Part shown: positions 13,267 through 44,093 of the stretch, piece by piece
Layout: each line of letters starts with the position of its first letter
Position numbering within the stretch: position 1 is the first letter of the stretch
From: an uncultured Flavobacteriales bacterium
GTDB taxonomy: Bacteria; Bacteroidota; Bacteroidia; Flavobacteriales_D; Sanyastnellaceae
NCBI GenBank assembly: GCA_937881575.1
Contig: CALGEI010000165.1
Span: 1 to 48,207 of the forward strand
Length of the DNA: 48,207 nt
Direction: 5' to 3'
Position numbers and translations under genes: made by a program
Notes under the pieces: generated by a model
Told to the model about the DNA's origin: nothing
The model's database searches: none
The model's input: only the letters and a program-made list of their open reading frames with translations

Positions 13267-13527
13267 CCCAAAACACTTAAAATCAACTGTTTAATCCGGT
13301 TGTTTTCGCACAATTGCAAATTAAAATGCTGTTTTCGCAGATTCCGCCTCATCTTTGCACAGCGAATAGGTCAGGTTGTTCATAACCTTTGAAACCATCG
13401 CAGGCGCGTTATCCCTAGTTGAACGCGCAATCGGACGATAGCGAATGGCTCTCCCGAATTTCAAACAATCAATTCGACTTGGGACGTTTACCGCACACGT
13501 TTTTGTGCGGATTGATTCCTTTCATTT
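13267..13527 (+). other. Structured leader region of the DEAD-box helicase
   Basis: A 261-base gene-free stretch, the longest in the window outside the insertion sequence. It contains two perfect 7-bp hairpins. The first is GCGCGTT (13404-13410) with AACGCGC (13422-13428). The second is CCGCACA (13491-13497) with TGTGCGG (13504-13510), ending 17 bases before the helicase start. A near-consensus -7 box CATCTTTG lies at 13350-13357. If it is used, the leader would be about 165 bases and contain both hairpins. A structured leader fits thermal or growth control of an RNA helicase; that role is inferred. Confidence 0.4.
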
Positions 13528-15291
13528 TTGAGTTTATTTACTGACCTGGGCCTATGCCCTGAAGTGCTTGACGCACTCAAACCGCTTGGATATTCCGAGC
13601 CCACCCCTATTCAAGCAGAAGCCATACCCGTTGTGATCAATGGTCAAGATGTGCTTGGATGTGCTCAAACAGGAACCGGTAAAACCGCTGCGTTTGCCCT
13701 TCCTATGATCCACAATTTGATCCAACAAGAGTTGCCACAAAGTGGTCGACGACAGCCTCGGGGCCTGATCTTGACTCCGACGCGTGAGTTGGCCACACAG
13801 ATTGGCGTTAACCTCAACGATTACAGCACCCAAACTCGTTTGCGAACTACAACCATTTTTGGTGGTGTTTCACAAAACCGACAGGTGGATGCGCTCCGTC
13901 GTGGTGTCGATATTGTGGTCGCAACGCCAGGGCGTTTATTGGATTTGGTGAATCAACGCCATTTGGACCTGCGTGATATCACGACCCTCGTACTTGACGA
14001 AGCGGATACCATGTTGGACATGGGATTCATCAACGACATTCGGAAGATCATCGCGATGCTTCCTACCGAACGCCAAACGTTGTTCTTCTCGGCTACCATG
14101 CCACCGAACATTGTAAAGCTTTCCAGTGACATTCTTCGTTCGCCTGTGCGCATTGAAGTTGCTCGCCAAAGTTCCGCTGCAGAAACAGTCGAGCAAACCA
14201 TTTATTCCATCCGTCAAAACGATAAGCGCGACTTGCTCGTAGCCATTTTGAAGGAGGACGATGTAGATTCAGCCCTGGTTTTTACCCGAACCAAATACGG
14301 TGCGGATAAGGTCGCTAAGCACTTGAGCGTCTCAGGCATCCAAGCCGAAGCCATTCATGGCAACAAAAGCCAGCCACAGCGGGACCGGGCCATGAACGGA
14401 TTCAAAAAAGGCAAGATTCGCGTATTGGTCGCGACCGATATTGCTTCTCGTGGAATTGACGTCGATGAGTTGAGCCATGTCATCAACTTCGAATTGCCCA
14501 ACGTTCCTGAATCGTATGTGCACCGGATCGGAAGAACCGGCCGTGCAGGATCCAGCGGAAAGGCACTCAGTTTCTGCAACGAAGCGGATGAACGCAAGTA
14601 CTTGCGTGACATTCAAAACCTCATTCAACGAGAGCTCCCTGTTGACGCTTCGCATGAGTGGCACCTCGAGATGCCCCCAGTGAGCACCATTACGGGTGCC
14701 ACTTCCAAGAAAAAAGCGGGGCGTTCAGGTCAAGGTCAATCGCGATCCAATGATGGATCTCGTGGCCGCAATTCTGACAATCGGCGGGACCGGCCTCAAG
14801 GCGGTGGACGCGGGGGGAATAGCAACGGCCGTGGCCCTTCATCTCGGAACTCCGATTCCGATCGTTCCGATAGCCGCGGTGGTCGTCCCGGTGGAAACGC
14901 CGGCAACCGATCCGGTTCAGACCGCCGAACAACCAGTTCAGCGGACCGCAAACCACAAACGGCTCGAGGTGATGGCCGTTCAGACGGGCGTCGAAGCGAT
15001 GACCGCGTTTCACGCGGAGGAAATCAAGAACGTGGAGGCCGAGGACCAGCAAGGTCCGACAGCCGACAAGGCGACCGCAGAAATGATGATCGCTCAGCAC
15101 GCTCTGGAGATCGTCGTGAAAATAGTCGCGGAAGCGCCGGAGGTTCAGACCGACCAAAGCGTCAAGATAATCGTCCGGAACAAAGCGGCTCAACCGCTTC
15201 CAAACCACAAAAGCCCGTCTTCAAACCAAGCGAACCAAGTAAGGCTCGACGGACCTTTGGAGGATTCTTTGGATTTGGTAAGGGCGAATGA
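13528..15291 (+). CDS. DEAD-box ATP-dependent RNA helicase with RG-rich tail
   Basis: A 587-residue RNA helicase of the RhlE/CsdA type, acting in ribosome assembly or RNA unwinding. Motifs in order: Q motif with PTPIQ (about 25-29), motif I AQTGTGKT (46-53), PTRELATQ, GG, TPGR, DEAD (157-160), SAT (188-190), VATDIASRGID and HRIGRTGRAG. From about residue 395 the chain becomes a disordered tail of nearly 200 residues rich in Arg, Gly, Ser and Asp, ending in an FGGFFGFGKGE segment; such tails bind RNA and favour condensates. Translation must start at TTG 13528: an in-frame TGA lies at 13513 and no ATG or GTG lies between, while MSLFTDLGL is the expected family start. Confidence 0.92.
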   Translation: MSLFTDLGLCPEVLDALKPLGYSEPTPIQAEAIPVVINGQDVLGCAQTGTGKTAAFALPMIHNLIQQELPQSGRRQPRGLILTPTRELATQIGVNLNDYSTQTRLRTTTIFGGVSQNRQVDALRRGVDIVVATPGRLLDLVNQRHLDLRDITTLVLDEADTMLDMGFINDIRKIIAMLPTERQTLFFSATMPPNIVKLSSDILRSPVRIEVARQSSAAETVEQTIYSIRQNDKRDLLVAILKEDDVDSALVFTRTKYGADKVAKHLSVSGIQAEAIHGNKSQPQRDRAMNGFKKGKIRVLVATDIASRGIDVDELSHVINFELPNVPESYVHRIGRTGRAGSSGKALSFCNEADERKYLRDIQNLIQRELPVDASHEWHLEMPPVSTITGATSKKKAGRSGQGQSRSNDGSRGRNSDNRRDRPQGGGRGGNSNGRGPSSRNSDSDRSDSRGGRPGGNAGNRSGSDRRTTSSADRKPQTARGDGRSDGRRSDDRVSRGGNQERGGRGPARSDSRQGDRRNDDRSARSGDRRENSRGSAGGSDRPKRQDNRPEQSGSTASKPQKPVFKPSEPSKARRTFGGFFGFGKGE

Positions 15292-19243: not shown

Positions 19244-20607
19244 CGTCTGTGCAACCGACCCTTTTTAAGCAGGGAATCATCGTCAACGAAGGGCGCAGTG
19301 AAGTCGGTGATGTCCTAACTGGATTGGATGGAACCATTGTAGCCGTAGGAGGCGACCTATCAAATCACCCCGGTTCTAACAACGCCATTATCGTAGACGC
19401 AAAGGACCATTGGTTGTTGCCCGGATGCATCGATGACCAAGTACACTTTCGGGAACCTGGATTGACACACAAGGCCGAAATCGCAACGGAATCTGCAGCC
19501 GCCGCAGCCGGAGGAATTACATCCTTCATGGAAATGCCCAACACCGTGCCTCAAGCGCTCACGCAGCAGCTCTTAGAAGATAAGTATGAACGCGCCGCAG
19601 AGGTGAGCGCTGTGAATTACTCGTTTTTCATGGGTGCTTCCAATGACAATCTGGACGAGGTGCTCAAAACTGACCCCAAACGGGTGTGTGGAATTAAGGT
19701 GTTTATGGGCTCTTCAACGGGCAATATGCTTGTCGATAACAGGGAAGTCCTGGAAGGAGTTTTCAAGGAAAGCCCTATGATTGTGGCAACCCACTGTGAA
19801 GATGAGGCAACGATCCGTCGCAACACCGAGTTGGCACGTGGGCAATTTGGTGAAGCCGTCCCCATCCATCATCACCCGATCATCCGCAACGCCGAAGCGT
19901 GCTACCGCAGCTCCTCCATGGCCGTAGAATTGGCCGAAAAATGGAACACACGGCTGCATATTTTGCACATTTCTAGCGCGAAGGAGGTGAGCCTTTTCCG
20001 AAATGACATCCCAACATCTGAAAAGCGCATCACCGCTGAAGCATGCGTGCACCACCTGTGGTTTACCGATTCAGATTATGAGCAAAAAGGAACCCATATC
20101 AAGTGGAATCCTGCGGTCAAAACAGCCGCCGACCGAGCGGAAATACGGGCAGGCTTGCTTGATGGCAGAATCGACGTCGTCGCGACAGACCATGCACCCC
20201 ATACGCTGGAAGAAAAGCAGCAATCGTATTTCAAAGCGCCTTCAGGAGGCCCTTTGGTTCAGCATGCCTTGGTTGCCATGCTTGAATTAGTCCATCAAGG
20301 TGTTTTACCCATTCATGAAGTGGCCAACCTCATGGCCCACCGGGTGGCGACAGTCTTTGACATTCCAGATCGAGGATACATTCGTCCCGGGTATCAAGCG
20401 GATTTAACCTTGGTTCACCCCAACGCCATTTGGACGGTTGAGCGCCGTGATTTGCTTTACAAATGCGGTTGGTCTCCCTTTGAAGGAACAGCGTTTCGGT
20501 CACGTGTCAAAGGAACTTGGGTCAATGGCACCCATGTTTTTGATGGGCATTCCGTCCAAACTTCACAAGGCAACCATGCCGGCCAGCGGCTCACTTTTGC
20601 ACGATGA
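19240..20607 (+). CDS. pyrC: Dihydroorotase (Bacteroidota type, HxH altered to QxH)
   Basis: Cyclises carbamoyl-aspartate to dihydroorotate in pyrimidine synthesis. The 455-residue amidohydrolase shows most of the metal site: carbamylated-Lys candidate K153 in GIKVFMGSSTGNML, H185 in THCED, H243 in HILHIS and D317 in ATDHAPH. The first metal motif reads D-D-Q67-V-H69-F-R-E-P-G, with Gln in place of the first His of the usual HxH. I recall the same DDQVHF motif in other Bacteroidota dihydroorotases, so this is probably a lineage trait and not decay. It overlaps the upstream GT2 gene and the downstream DUF4296 gene by four bases each (ATGA), implying coupled translation. Confidence 0.9.
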   Translation: MTSVQPTLFKQGIIVNEGRSEVGDVLTGLDGTIVAVGGDLSNHPGSNNAIIVDAKDHWLLPGCIDDQVHFREPGLTHKAEIATESAAAAAGGITSFMEMPNTVPQALTQQLLEDKYERAAEVSAVNYSFFMGASNDNLDEVLKTDPKRVCGIKVFMGSSTGNMLVDNREVLEGVFKESPMIVATHCEDEATIRRNTELARGQFGEAVPIHHHPIIRNAEACYRSSSMAVELAEKWNTRLHILHISSAKEVSLFRNDIPTSEKRITAEACVHHLWFTDSDYEQKGTHIKWNPAVKTAADRAEIRAGLLDGRIDVVATDHAPHTLEEKQQSYFKAPSGGPLVQHALVAMLELVHQGVLPIHEVANLMAHRVATVFDIPDRGYIRPGYQADLTLVHPNAIWTVERRDLLYKCGWSPFEGTAFRSRVKGTWVNGTHVFDGHSVQTSQGNHAGQRLTFAR

Positions 20608-20990
20608 GTCGACTCATGCTAATGATGCTGCTCGTTGCGATGAGCGCCTGCTCTTCTTCGAGACAATCAGGAGTCGAATCTCCTGATGAAATCGTTTCAC
20701 GAGACACCTTTTTATTGATGCTCACAGAGGTGCAATTGATTGAAGGCGTCTTCAAACAGCGCTTGCTTCGCAATGACGACGAAGACATGCTCCTGAAAAG
20801 TCATTATGCTGAGCTTTTTCAGCGATTTGAAATCACAGAAGAACGATTTCTTCAGAGTTACCGATGGTGGTATGAACATCCCTCAGAGATGGACAATCTG
20901 CTGCAAGAAGCCGCTGAAGGGCTGACCGCCATGGAGCGCATTTCCATCCAATCTGAATCCGATTCCACATCGGAACGGCGTCAACGTTAG
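20604..20990 (+). CDS. DUF4296 family lipoprotein
   Basis: A 128-residue small lipoprotein. The signal MSRLMLMMLLVAMSAC ends in a good lipobox with lipidated Cys16. The remaining helical domain contains RDTFLLMLTEVQLIEG and FEITEERFLQSYRWWYEHP, the pattern of DUF4296, followed by a polar Ser/Arg tail. The function of the family is unknown. It is coupled to dihydroorotase by a four-base ATGA overlap and ends tail-to-tail with the minus-strand epimerase gene, whose stop shares bases with its TAG. Confidence 0.85.
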   Translation: MSRLMLMMLLVAMSACSSSRQSGVESPDEIVSRDTFLLMLTEVQLIEGVFKQRLLRNDDEDMLLKSHYAELFQRFEITEERFLQSYRWWYEHPSEMDNLLQEAAEGLTAMERISIQSESDSTSERRQR

Positions 20991-40309: not shown

Positions 40310-42160
40310 ATGTGCGGAATTGTAGGATATATCGGAAATAGGGACGCCTTCCCCGTCTTGATTAAAGGCCTTCAACGTTTGGAGTATCGCGGATACGACA
40401 GTGCGGGTGTTGCCCTTTTAAATGAAGATGGACAATTGAACTTGGGGAAAAAAAAGGGAAAGGTTTCCGATTTGCTCGAGCACATTGGTGAGAATCACGC
40501 CTTGCACGGTTACGCAGGCATTGGTCATACGCGATGGGCCACCCACGGACCGCCCAACGATGTCAACGCTCACCCTCACCAAGCACGAGCTGGGAGTTTA
40601 GCCCTGATCCACAACGGCATCATTGAGAACTACCTATCCCTTCGAAAAACTCTGGAGGCCATTGGGCATGCTTTCATCAGTGACACCGATACCGAAGTGC
40701 TCGTTCATTTGATTGAAGAGGTGCAGAAACGTTCCAATCTCAGCATATGTGACGCTGTTCAAGTTGCCTTGAGAGAAGTCGAAGGAGCCTATGCCATTGT
40801 CGTTATTGATAAGGACGAACCCAACATCTTAATCGCTGCGCGTAAGTCCAGCCCGCTGGTTATTGGTGTCGGCGAGGAGGGTGAGTATTTTGTGGGATCT
40901 GACGCGACACCCATCATTGAGTACACTCAAAATGTGATTTACCTCGAAGATGAGGAGGTGGCTATGATGCATCGGTCAGAAGGATTGATTATTCGGAATT
41001 TGCAAAACATGGTCATCACGCCTGAAGTCCATGAACTGAAGCTGCAAATCGAAGAGTTAGAAAAAGGTGGTTACGAGCATTTCATGCTCAAGGAAATCTT
41101 CGAACAACCGCGGTCCATTTTCGATTCCATTCGGGGAAGAATGAGCCTCCAGCGCGGCGAAATTCGCATGGCGGGCATCGATGATCACTGGAGCAGATGG
41201 GCAAAGGCAGAGCGCATCATCATCATCGCCTGCGGCACAAGCTGGCACGCAGGTCTCGTGGCAGAATATCTCTTTGAGGATCTCGCTCGCATTCCTGTTG
41301 AAGTTGAATACGCTTCTGAATTTCGGTACCGAAATCCTGTTATTCGACCCACGGATATCGTCATTGCCATTTCTCAATCTGGTGAGACCGCGGACACGCT
41401 TGCCGCCATTCAATTGGCTAAGTCCCGCGGAGTTCATGTCTTTGGCTTGTGCAACGTGGTCGGATCGAGCATCGCTCGCGAAACGGATAGCGGTGCTTAC
41501 ACCCATGCCGGTCCTGAAATTGGCGTAGCGTCTACCAAGGCCTTCACCGCGCAAGTCGCAGTTCTGACTTTGATGGCTATGTTGGTTGGAAAACGGAACG
41601 GGAATCTCTCGGCCAAACACTTCAGTCGACTGCTTGTCGAAATCAATTCCATTCCGGAGAAGGTGGAGACTTTACTGAAACAGGACGGGGAAATTCAAAA
41701 AATAGCCCATGCTTTCAAGGACTCCACCAACGCCCTGTATTTGGGCCGTGGGTACAACTTCCCCGTTGCTCTCGAAGGTGCCTTGAAATTGAAAGAGATC
41801 AGCTACATCCATGCCGAAGGATATCCATCGGCAGAAATGAAGCACGGGCCGATTGCCTTGATCGATGAGCACATGCCTGTTTTCTTCATCGCAACACGCG
41901 ATGACGTCTACGACAAAGTGGTTTCAAACATTCAAGAAGTCAAGGCCCGTGGTGGTCGATTGGTCGCACTCGTTTCCACTGGCAATTCAGACTTGAAAGA
42001 GCTCGCAGAGTTTGTGATATCCATCCCAAAATGCGATCAAGTCCTGGCTCCATTGTTGACGACCATTCCATTGCAATTGCTGAGTTACCACATCGCTGTT
42101 TTGCGTGACTGCCACGTCGATCAACCCCGGAACTTAGCCAAGAGCGTAACGGTAGAATAA
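40310..42160 (+). CDS. glmS: Glutamine--fructose-6-phosphate aminotransferase (isomerising)
   Basis: Makes glucosamine 6-phosphate from fructose 6-phosphate and glutamine, the entry to peptidoglycan and lipid A amino sugars. The 616-residue chain has the N-terminal class II glutaminase (catalytic Cys2 in MCGIVGYIG, then EYRGYDSAG, GHTRWATHG, HNGIIENY) and two SIS sugar-isomerase domains (IACGTSWHAG, AISQSGETADTLAA, GVASTKAFTAQ; LGRGYNFPVALEGALKLKEISYIHAEGY). The family C-terminus PRNLAKSVTVE is intact. No glmS ribozyme-like structure is evident in the short 24-base upstream gap. Here it ends the GT5-DUF4270 series. Confidence 0.97.
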   Translation: MCGIVGYIGNRDAFPVLIKGLQRLEYRGYDSAGVALLNEDGQLNLGKKKGKVSDLLEHIGENHALHGYAGIGHTRWATHGPPNDVNAHPHQARAGSLALIHNGIIENYLSLRKTLEAIGHAFISDTDTEVLVHLIEEVQKRSNLSICDAVQVALREVEGAYAIVVIDKDEPNILIAARKSSPLVIGVGEEGEYFVGSDATPIIEYTQNVIYLEDEEVAMMHRSEGLIIRNLQNMVITPEVHELKLQIEELEKGGYEHFMLKEIFEQPRSIFDSIRGRMSLQRGEIRMAGIDDHWSRWAKAERIIIIACGTSWHAGLVAEYLFEDLARIPVEVEYASEFRYRNPVIRPTDIVIAISQSGETADTLAAIQLAKSRGVHVFGLCNVVGSSIARETDSGAYTHAGPEIGVASTKAFTAQVAVLTLMAMLVGKRNGNLSAKHFSRLLVEINSIPEKVETLLKQDGEIQKIAHAFKDSTNALYLGRGYNFPVALEGALKLKEISYIHAEGYPSAEMKHGPIALIDEHMPVFFIATRDDVYDKVVSNIQEVKARGGRLVALVSTGNSDLKELAEFVISIPKCDQVLAPLLTTIPLQLLSYHIAVLRDCHVDQPRNLAKSVTVE

Positions 42161-42205
42161 TTTGATGTGTGATTCATCGCATACTGCACCTCAAACGGCA
42201 ATGTC

Positions 42206-42580
42206 ATGAGCTACATCGAAAAAACATTGACCACCGATGAGGTGGTTATTTCCATCTTTTCAATTCACAAGTTCTTCTATATCATTCCGGCTTTGAGTTC
42301 CTTGGTTCTTATCGGTATTCCCTCTCTCTTGAAGCTCGTCTTCACCGAATACAGCTTGACCAATAAGCGAATTGTCGTCAAAACAGGCATCATTGGCCGA
42401 AGCACTGAAGAGTTGAAATTGAGCAAAGTCGAAACGGTCGAGCTTCGCCAGTCCATCTTAGGGAGGATCTTTGGATTCGGAAATATCGTGCTGAGCGGAA
42501 CCGGCGCAAGCAACCTTGTTCTAAAAACTGTCGCTGACCCGGTTCAAGTCAAGAAAACAATTGACAACCAGCTGATCTAG
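42206..42580 (+). CDS. PH-domain (bPH2) membrane-associated protein
   Basis: A 124-residue protein with one or two N-terminal hydrophobic stretches (about 23-45) followed by a bacterial PH domain of the YdbS/YdbT type (about 48-122). The domain shows YSLTNKRIVVKTGIIGRSTEELKLSKVETVELRQS and IFGFGNIVLSGTG. Such domains are found in small membrane proteins of unclear function. It follows glmS by 45 bases and may be read from the same transcript, or may be independent. The next gene converges on it after 70 bases. Confidence 0.83.
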   Translation: MSYIEKTLTTDEVVISIFSIHKFFYIIPALSSLVLIGIPSLLKLVFTEYSLTNKRIVVKTGIIGRSTEELKLSKVETVELRQSILGRIFGFGNIVLSGTGASNLVLKTVADPVQVKKTIDNQLI

Positions 42581-42650
42581 CGCGTTTGGACGCACACTAC
42601 TTTGGCCCCGTTTCGAATGAACACGAACCTATTCCATCGCTGAGTAAACG

Positions 42651-44093
42651 CTACAGTTCGCGACCTATGCCCTCTAGCCCTTCGAGCAATCCATTTAAAT
42701 CTTCTTCCTGCGTCAATGGGTTTTGGAAGGTGCATCGGAGCCAGGTCTGATCTCCAAAAACCGTTTTCACCAAATAATAAGGCCCTGCATCGATCATGTT
42801 ACGGCGCAATGCGTCGTTGTCGAAATCCATTGATCGAAAGCAAACAATGTTGGAATTCGGGTGGTTGAACAGTTCCCACCCAGGTCGATTGTCCACAATT
42901 TGGGCAAAGGACTGCGCATTCTCAATGAGCCGATCCACCAAACTCTCCCAAAGATTCGGTCCGTGGTTTTCCCAAATGCCATAGACCGCTGCACTGAGCA
43001 TGCGCTTGGTGCATTCAAACGTGCGCTTGCTGAAATTCCACCACTCTTCCTCCTGGGATTCGTAGAGGTAATTCGCTTCGTGAGAAAACGCTGCATACCC
43101 GTCTTGGCCATTGCGGTAAAATAGCCCGGTGCACAAGGCCGGAACCCCCAACATCTTGTGGAAGTCCATGGCAATGGAATCAGCGCGTTCCATGCCCTTC
43201 AAAACCATGCTATGCGTTTTCGAGAAAATCTGGGCTGCGCCGTGTGCGCCGTCTACATGAAACCACATCCCGTGCTGTTCGGCAAAATCCGCCATCATCT
43301 CCAAATCATCAAACGATCCGGTCGACGTTGTACAAGCACTGCCCACGATGGCCAGTACTTCAAACCCCCAATTTTTGGCTTCTTCATATGACTCCAACAG
43401 GGCCTTCCCGTCCATCTGATGCCGTTCATTCGTGGCCACTTTAAAGATGCCGCCCTCTCCCCAGCCCATGACTTGAGCCGCACGCGCCACGCAATAGTGT
43501 GCCTGATCGCTGACCAAAAGCGCACAGGGCTTGCTCGTGCCATCTCGCCAGGCGTTGCCAGGATAACGCCGCTGTCGCGCCGCGAGAAGCGCCGTTAAAT
43601 TGGCCAAGGTGCCCCCATGACATAGCACGCCATTGGACTCCGGCCCCAATCCCATGAACTGAGCAATGGAACGCATCGCTGCTTCTTCCATGGGGGATGA
43701 CGCGGGTCCCATTTCATCGATGGCCATGCCGTTGTTCAACAGCGACGTAGCCGCCTGCAACCAAGCGAGTTCAGGAAATGGAACGGCGACTTGATGTCCT
43801 GCATACCTCGGATCATGCAATTTATTCGACCGATCGACCATGCGTTTGATTAGATCATGTCGAACAAGGCCTGTATCCGCGGAATCCTGGGGGCGCTCCA
43901 ATTCCGATTGCCATTGGGCCAACCGCTCTTCCGGCGTCCCCTGAGGTAAGACCCGATCAAATTCACGCGACCAGGCCGATTCCAGATATTGAAACAACTC
44001 ATTTTGAACAGATTCACCCACTTTTTCAAATCTGTTGGCGTTAAAGTGGGACGCCCAATGCGAGCGATTGAACCTTCGTGTATGCTCTTCCAT
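42651..44093 (-). CDS. Group II pyridoxal-phosphate-dependent decarboxylase
   Basis: A 480-residue member of the DDC/glutamate decarboxylase superfamily. Seen are the phosphate-binding HGGTLANLTALL (about 159-170), SDQAHYCVARAA with His199 stacking on PLP, FHVDGAHGAA with Asp281, and the Schiff-base lysine K313 in MDFHKMLGVPAL. It releases CO2 from an amino acid; aspartate, glutamate, 2,4-diaminobutyrate and aromatic substrates all occur in this group, and the sequence does not decide. Because panC lies about 5 kb away without panD beside it, aspartate (to beta-alanine) is a reasonable guess. It is divergent from the outer-membrane gene at 44178, with a variant -7-like AACTTTCG three bases upstream. 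Confidence 0.87.
   Translation of the reverse strand: MEEHTRRFNRSHWASHFNANRFEKVGESVQNELFQYLESAWSREFDRVLPQGTPEERLAQWQSELERPQDSADTGLVRHDLIKRMVDRSNKLHDPRYAGHQVAVPFPELAWLQAATSLLNNGMAIDEMGPASSPMEEAAMRSIAQFMGLGPESNGVLCHGGTLANLTALLAARQRRYPGNAWRDGTSKPCALLVSDQAHYCVARAAQVMGWGEGGIFKVATNERHQMDGKALLESYEEAKNWGFEVLAIVGSACTTSTGSFDDLEMMADFAEQHGMWFHVDGAHGAAQIFSKTHSMVLKGMERADSIAMDFHKMLGVPALCTGLFYRNGQDGYAAFSHEANYLYESQEEEWWNFSKRTFECTKRMLSAAVYGIWENHGPNLWESLVDRLIENAQSFAQIVDNRPGWELFNHPNSNIVCFRSMDFDNDALRRNMIDAGPYYLVKTVFGDQTWLRCTFQNPLTQEEDLNGLLEGLEGIGREL

Follow-up and report, generated by a model that had tools for sequence, protein, structure and literature searches.

A covarying, pseudoknotted leader RNA upstream of an RhlE-type DEAD-box helicase gene in Sanyastnellaceae

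An RhlE-type DEAD-box RNA helicase gene of an uncultured Flavobacteriales bacterium (Sanyastnellaceae; assembly GCA_937881575.1, contig CALGEI010000165.1, of which a stretch of 48,207 nucleotides was analysed and is called the window) is preceded by a leader of about 166 nt whose folded, pseudoknotted structure is almost certainly real (Table 1). Conservation and covariation among relatives strongly support a functional structured leader, and this leader probably lets the cell set the amount of helicase that is made. The reading that we consider most likely, and that we would give about an even chance, is that the leader of the helicase mRNA is a cis-regulatory RNA under autogenous control by the helicase.

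Table 1. Features of the helicase gene and its leader (positions in the window)
Feature	Position	Strand	Basis or remark
Inferred -7 promoter box CATCTTTG	13350..13357	+	Bacteroidota type; same type of box in relatives
P0 5' hairpin	13362..13401	+	predicted in fold of window stretch; window clade by eye
P0 pairs GCGA/TCGC	13362-13365/13398-13401	+	
P0 pairs GGT/ACC	13369-13371/13394-13396	+	
P0 pairs AGGTT/AACCT	13373-13377/13384-13388	+	
S1 hairpin GCGCGTT/AACGCGC	13404-13410/13422-13428	+	exact match; first hairpin of the preliminary description
S2 5' strand TCCCTAGTTG, within S1 loop	13412..13421	+	pseudoknot partner 13475-13484
S2 3' strand CGACTTGGGA	13475..13484	+	pseudoknot partner 13412-13421
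H2 hairpin CCGCACA/TGTGCGG	13491-13497/13504-13510	+	exact match; second hairpin of the preliminary description
TTG start codon	13528..13530	+	only ATG/GTG/TTG available; TTG in 6/6 window-clade leaders
RhlE-type DEAD-box RNA helicase, 587 aa, Arg/Gly/Ser-rich tail	13528..15291	+	Pfam, NCBIfam

The helicase carries the Pfam domains DEAD (2.6e-50) and Helicase_C (1.5e-32) together with a weak, overlapping ResIII match, and its best NCBIfam model is RhlE with 502.2 bits, which is under the cut-off of 743 for that model. A preliminary description of this DNA had proposed that the gene is forced to start with TTG, and this was confirmed, as a TGA lies in frame at 13513-13515 and the TTG is the sole ATG, GTG or TTG codon before the conserved N-terminus SLFTDLGL. 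The same description had regarded the structured leader and the weak start codon as one unit. However, ATG is used in 24 of the 30 leaders that contain the element (those of the genera g3, g9, g13 and g14), while in lineages without the pseudoknot 14 of 15 genes of g1B, the remaining species of the window's own genus g1, and 12 of 14 genes of g10 have TTG at the conserved position, some of them with other in-frame codons upstream. The leader and the weak start codon therefore evolve separately, and on the basis of this start-codon distribution the TTG start was rejected as part of a regulatory unit. The long leader itself is particular to the RhlE-type gene, since two other DEAD-box paralogs that were checked in the genus (12 loci, L237-L248) have a TAACTTTG-like promoter box 4 nt before their ATG or GTG and thus look nearly leaderless.

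Both perfect 7-bp hairpins of the preliminary description, S1 and H2 (13404-13428 and 13491-13510), are present exactly as it gave them and are the sole hairpins of this kind (loop of 3-12 nt) within 13267-13527; its spacing of 17 bases between the second hairpin and the start is also correct. The unusually long gene-free stretch in which it placed them does exist as a gap of 261 nt, but its length is not clearly exceptional, with longer gaps found elsewhere in the window, for example at 20607-20987 and 42160-42651 (gaps between open reading frames of at least 150 aa, shorter genes not being counted). Of 2000 dinucleotide shuffles of 13267-13527, 110 contained at least two perfect 7-bp hairpins, and the fold of the 294-nt stretch had a z of -1.04, 27 of 200 shuffles folding equally well, so that one sequence alone gives no proof of structure. 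These values would suit chance hairpins, or an operator in double-stranded DNA, in place of an RNA, an explanation that we consider exceedingly improbable in view of the covariation, the excess of G-U pairs, the helix that crosses S1 with 53 nt between its strands and the conservation above neutral sites, all described below; chance hairpins were rejected by the covariation and the leader conservation, and a DNA operator by the G-U excess and the crossing helix. No terminator hairpin with a U-tract was listed in 13267-13527, H2 included, and an intrinsic terminator or transcription attenuator was rejected on this ground. An open reading frame runs from an ATG at 13445 to a TGA that overlaps the TTG start (window 13445-13531). 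Control by a conserved upstream open reading frame or leader peptide was rejected after inspection by eye, as an insertion shifts the frame in three same-genus relatives (L002-L004) and a fourth (L006) is without the ATG.

Conservation of the leader is far above that of neutral sites. Over 13362-13510, identity to the window is 98, 95, 93 and 76% for L002, L003, L004 and L006, respectively, compared to 62, 46, 42 and 35% at fourfold-degenerate sites of the helicase gene and 59, 51, 50 and 39% in the adjacent spacer at 13267-13340. Conservation of the whole stretch between the inferred promoter box and the start codon is about equal to that of the leader.

The main feature of the structure, which the preliminary description did not contain, is the pseudoknot helix S2. 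Its two strands are separated by 53 nt in the window and lie closer together in g14; a single U-U mismatch in the window S2 is replaced by G-U in L002-L004 and by A-U in L006. Covariation was assessed in an alignment of 24 of 27 leaders from five genera (g1, g3, g9, g13 and g14), which omits L128 and L143, identical over the stretch to L127 and L142, respectively, and L150, in which H2 is lost and whose inclusion would lower the H2 count. The leaders of the genomes G012, G102 and G124 are absent from this alignment, that of G102 being present in a second one, which consists of ten g3 leaders and in which P0 can be aligned. From the 24-leader alignment RNAalifold recovered S1 and H2 unaided. 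Over S1, S2 and H2, compensatory changes on both sides were found at 13 of the 20 counted pairs and in 55 cells, 93.1% of the cells were paired and the covariation score was 0.379; each of these four values was reached by none of 500 shuffles. A fifth measure, the number of further pair types, was not exceptional (25 compared to a shuffle mean of 22.3, reached by 55 of 500 shuffles). The shuffles ignore relatedness, and more weight is therefore given to a slid control, in which moving the partner by 1-3 columns left 21.6-44.7% of cells paired and 3-8 cells with changes on both sides.

The individual helices of the 24 leaders contribute in different ways. S1 is paired in 100% of cells, with two of its six counted pairs varying on both sides and four invariant, and H2 in 93.7% of cells, with five of six counted pairs varying on both sides. 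In S2, 87.4% of cells are paired and six of eight pairs vary on both sides, the unpaired cells (3, 8, 5 and 6) falling at four of the eight pairs; in the window clade the lower half of the helix pairs one column off the counted register, and its cells therefore count against the structure, and within g3 S2 is paired in 100% of cells. Likewise, both-side changes occur in g3 at five of seven P0 pairs, a count lowered by one row, L126, that is one column off in P0, and altogether nine of 27 pairs in the ten g3 leaders vary on both sides, with none of 500 shuffles reaching the number of pairs or of cells. In addition, G-U cells (31) exceed A-C cells (7), which argues that the element acts as an RNA of the + strand. 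The hairpins of the preliminary description are thus both conserved and covarying in relatives, and at the level of sequence comparison S1, S2 and H2 are demonstrated across five genera and P0 in g3; the same comparison shows that the element works as + strand RNA and is tied to this one gene.

Between S1 and the 3' strand of S2, the loop contains CACGAG in nine and GAAGG in nine of the ten g3 leaders, and the g9 leaders L117 and L134 have both motifs in the corresponding loop. It is possible that this segment represents a protein-binding site.

The -7 promoter consensus of Bacteroidota is TAnnTTTG. The box CATCTTTG, which is conserved across the window clade, L006 included, would place the transcript start at about 13361-13362, and a promoter-type box is similarly found about 4 nt 5' of P0 in all ten g3 leaders, in the form TAnnTT(T/C)G, while all 11 g14 leaders have one of the form TAnTTTTG 5' of their first hairpin. 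Against this start, an automatic box search chose the later AACCTTTG (13384-13391) in five of six window-clade rows; this later box is degenerate in L006, where it reads AACCTCTG. If the transcript started after AACCTTTG, P0 would be lost from the leader. Read 5' to 3', the leader region of the window consists of the promoter box, a 4-nt spacer, P0, the S1/S2 pseudoknot, H2, a spacer of 17 nt and the start codon; in other lineages the distance from the end of H2 to the start codon is about 13-20 nt, as judged by eye. In the window clade and in g3 and g14, P0 begins about 4 nt past the inferred promoter box, which would also be expected if P0 and the pseudoknot merely shielded the messenger from decay and no ligand were involved. 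However, a simple 5' hairpin would suffice for such a role, while the conserved pseudoknot and the g3 loop segment demand more, and the 5' end from which the position of P0 is reckoned is itself an inferred one; we therefore regard a purely stabilising structure as quite unlikely.

To follow the element beyond the window clade, a covariance model was built from the 24-leader alignment with S1 and H2 as paired and S2 as sequence only. It matched 30 of 114 genomes of the family at E <= 1.6e-10, with one such match in each: six in the window clade of g1, 10 in g3, two in g9, one in g13 and 11 in g14. In g3, g9, g13 and g14 the RNA is the same and its sequence different. Most of the matched leaders had served to train the model, so the scores are not independent proof, but the gene context is: 29 of the 30 strong matches were seen directly 5' of this RhlE-type DEAD-box gene (25 placed by a search for the N-terminal motif and four g14 leaders by the ortholog search), and at the thirtieth, in G102, the contig ends 4 nt past the ATG. 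The ortholog search had covered 60 relatives first and the 114 family genomes thereafter, and 94 of the latter gave a match at E <= 1e-110. The model also gave weak matches, with E of 1.2e-8 and above. Of these, 16 were fetched, 12 of them from outside genus g1; all 16 overlap long open frames and none lies 5' of a DEAD-box gene. Among the weak matches beyond these 16 are those in G582, G604 and G623 and a second match each in G029 and G104. Outside the family no convincing match was found in the order (399 genomes) or the class (395 genomes; evenly drawn, overlapping sets), in searches with stricter filters and few candidates scored per genome that may miss diverged copies, nor did the model match any of 80 named DEAD-box loci, the top-ranking ones of a longer list.

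Rfam recognised only a tRNA in the whole window. The window leader and 16 upstream stretches related to it gave only matches of E 4.5-8.8, far below gathering scores; a known Rfam family was rejected, as no score exceeded the gathering threshold. By these comparisons the element is a pseudoknotted leader RNA that is uncatalogued in Rfam and belongs to a known kind, the structured mRNA leader. H-type pseudoknots near start codons are common in riboswitches, and together with the conserved loop nucleotides this would fit a riboswitch for a small molecule, or an RNA before the helicase gene that senses the ribosome or another protein. Such a sensor nevertheless seems quite improbable to us, given that the strong matches in the family genomes searched lie before RNA helicase genes only and that Rfam shows no similarity.

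The history of the gene was traced in a helicase tree of g1, g3, g9, g10, g13 and g14 with 12 outside rows, the named ones of which are Bacteroidota; g4, g8 and further genera were not part of it. All 55 rows from the six genera fall into a single clade (support 100/99; bootstrap not settled). The pseudoknot is present in g14, in the group of the window clade (g1A), g9 and g13, and in g3, and it is absent in g10 and g1B, in which the helicase is kept. Ancestral presence followed by two losses would be the simplest account, and transfer is possible, with several inner forks weak and g1A apart from g1B. Moreover, the window-clade helicase groups with those of g9 and g13 (82/86) and not with those of g1B, which hints at a replacement of the gene together with its leader.

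Other leaders were observed before the same gene. In g8 (L161-L165, L167 and L171) a different, highly conserved leader is located about 110 nt before the helicase start, with ATCAGG...CCTGAT around GTCC/GGAC followed by GTTCG/CGCGAAC, and the g4 loci L180-L182 and L184-L186 have a conserved leader in which CCGAGT and ACTCGG are complementary and a TTGTACGGCTACGATTTC segment recurs. At the loci with TTG in place of the pseudoknot-linked ATG, in g1B (L009, L013-L016 and L018-L026) and at 12 g10 loci, short hairpins with apparent compensatory changes were seen by eye just upstream of the gene. Consensus folds, calculated from similar sequences and without shuffles, reach -21.2 kcal/mol in g8, -16.7 in g4 and -4.0 in g1B; the g10 alignment gives no consensus fold, and its short hairpins are readable by eye.

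Under autogenous control, the messenger would present, from its inferred 5' end, P0, then the H-type pseudoknot S1/S2 and then H2 shortly before the start codon, and the leader would set helicase output after transcription start, via translation initiation or mRNA stability and not via termination. Control of translation or message stability is favoured because no terminator was found and H2 lies close to the start. The sensed signal would be the helicase itself, either its amount or its free activity, and the helicase is proposed as the ligand because the element is linked to a single gene before which different leaders occur in related lineages. Plentiful free helicase might bind or remodel the pseudoknot, whereupon expression would fall, and expression might rise when the helicase is occupied, for example with misfolded RNA in the cold, the polarity being a guess in both directions. 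Temperature, if it acts at all, would do so through the demand on the helicase. Counting against the autogenous reading are the lack of a specific RNA-binding domain in the helicase, for which Pfam gave no match besides DEAD, Helicase_C and the weak ResIII, the lack of rRNA mimicry, the missing element in g10 and g1B, and the partial pairing of the start region in the predicted nested folds, in which direct occlusion is not evident. The longest words shared by six leaders with rRNA were within the shuffle range, the rRNA being taken from G001, G038 and G039 (LSU found in two and SSU in three of 13 genomes, none of them the window's), and mimicry by shared words was rejected, as shuffles match the longest words. 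A more specific possibility, which we put forward tentatively and consider doubtful, is that the unfolding of the pseudoknot by the encoded helicase is itself the signal that sets output. Selection would in that case favour a structure on which the helicase must work and not one particular RNA, as suggested by the replacement of the element in some lineages of the family by other leaders before the same gene.

A cold-responsive leader that acts without helicase feedback, its low-temperature pseudoknotted form promoting translation or stability, would be in line with the strong structure and with the cold-shock RhlE helicase reported for Caulobacter (PMC5472812). However, the stems are GC-rich, and the accessibility of the start changes little with temperature, the mean unpaired fraction of the start region being 0.54 at 37 C and 0.46 at 10 C (27 leaders; nested folding, in which the pseudoknot is not representable), so that we hold this explanation to be unlikely. 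In classical RNA thermometers such as ROSE and FourU a helix of low stability covers the ribosome-binding site and opens on heating; the start region here is about half unpaired at both temperatures (nested folds, pseudoknot excluded), and there is no Rfam match. The cold-related RNA-chaperone gene cspA of E. coli has a pseudoknotted leader whose low-temperature form promotes translation or stability. Its likeness to the present leader is meant as one of description, and the structure here comes from covariation and not from temperature probing. The Pistol ribozyme also has a hairpin whose loop pairs downstream, as does S1 of the window leader, which has no Rfam match to Pistol even at E 10. 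A pistol-like enclosing helix, AATCAAT/ATTGATT, is perfect in the window, has one mismatch in L002, is weak or absent in L003, L004 and L006 by eye, and was rejected.

Closer parallels to autogenous control are found among ribosomal-protein leaders, for which the autogenous ligand has been inferred from linkage to one gene and related lineages may carry structurally unrelated leaders for the same ribosomal protein (PMC7247131). The present element likewise is a structured leader tied to one gene with other leaders in related lineages; it differs in that the gene encodes an RNA helicase and that shared words give no rRNA mimicry. A precedent for the autoregulation of an RNA helicase gene is crhR of Synechocystis, a DEAD-box helicase with transcriptional and post-transcriptional autoregulation, although it belongs to another phylum and the abstract names no conserved leader RNA (PMC3485376). 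No published report of the element was found in the open literature, which does not include the majority of subscription papers or the most extensive motif survey, of 2017. The word helicase is absent from the main text, as far as available and apart from supplements, of PMC2864571, PMC7247131 and PMC9723704, the last of which lists 64 structured 5' regions of Flavobacterium psychrophilum. With the present analysis, the leaders reported from Bacteroidota gain a pseudoknotted member that is backed by covariation. With its helices, natural compensatory changes and element-free lineages at hand, the question of how bacteria set the levels of their RNA helicases becomes directly testable.
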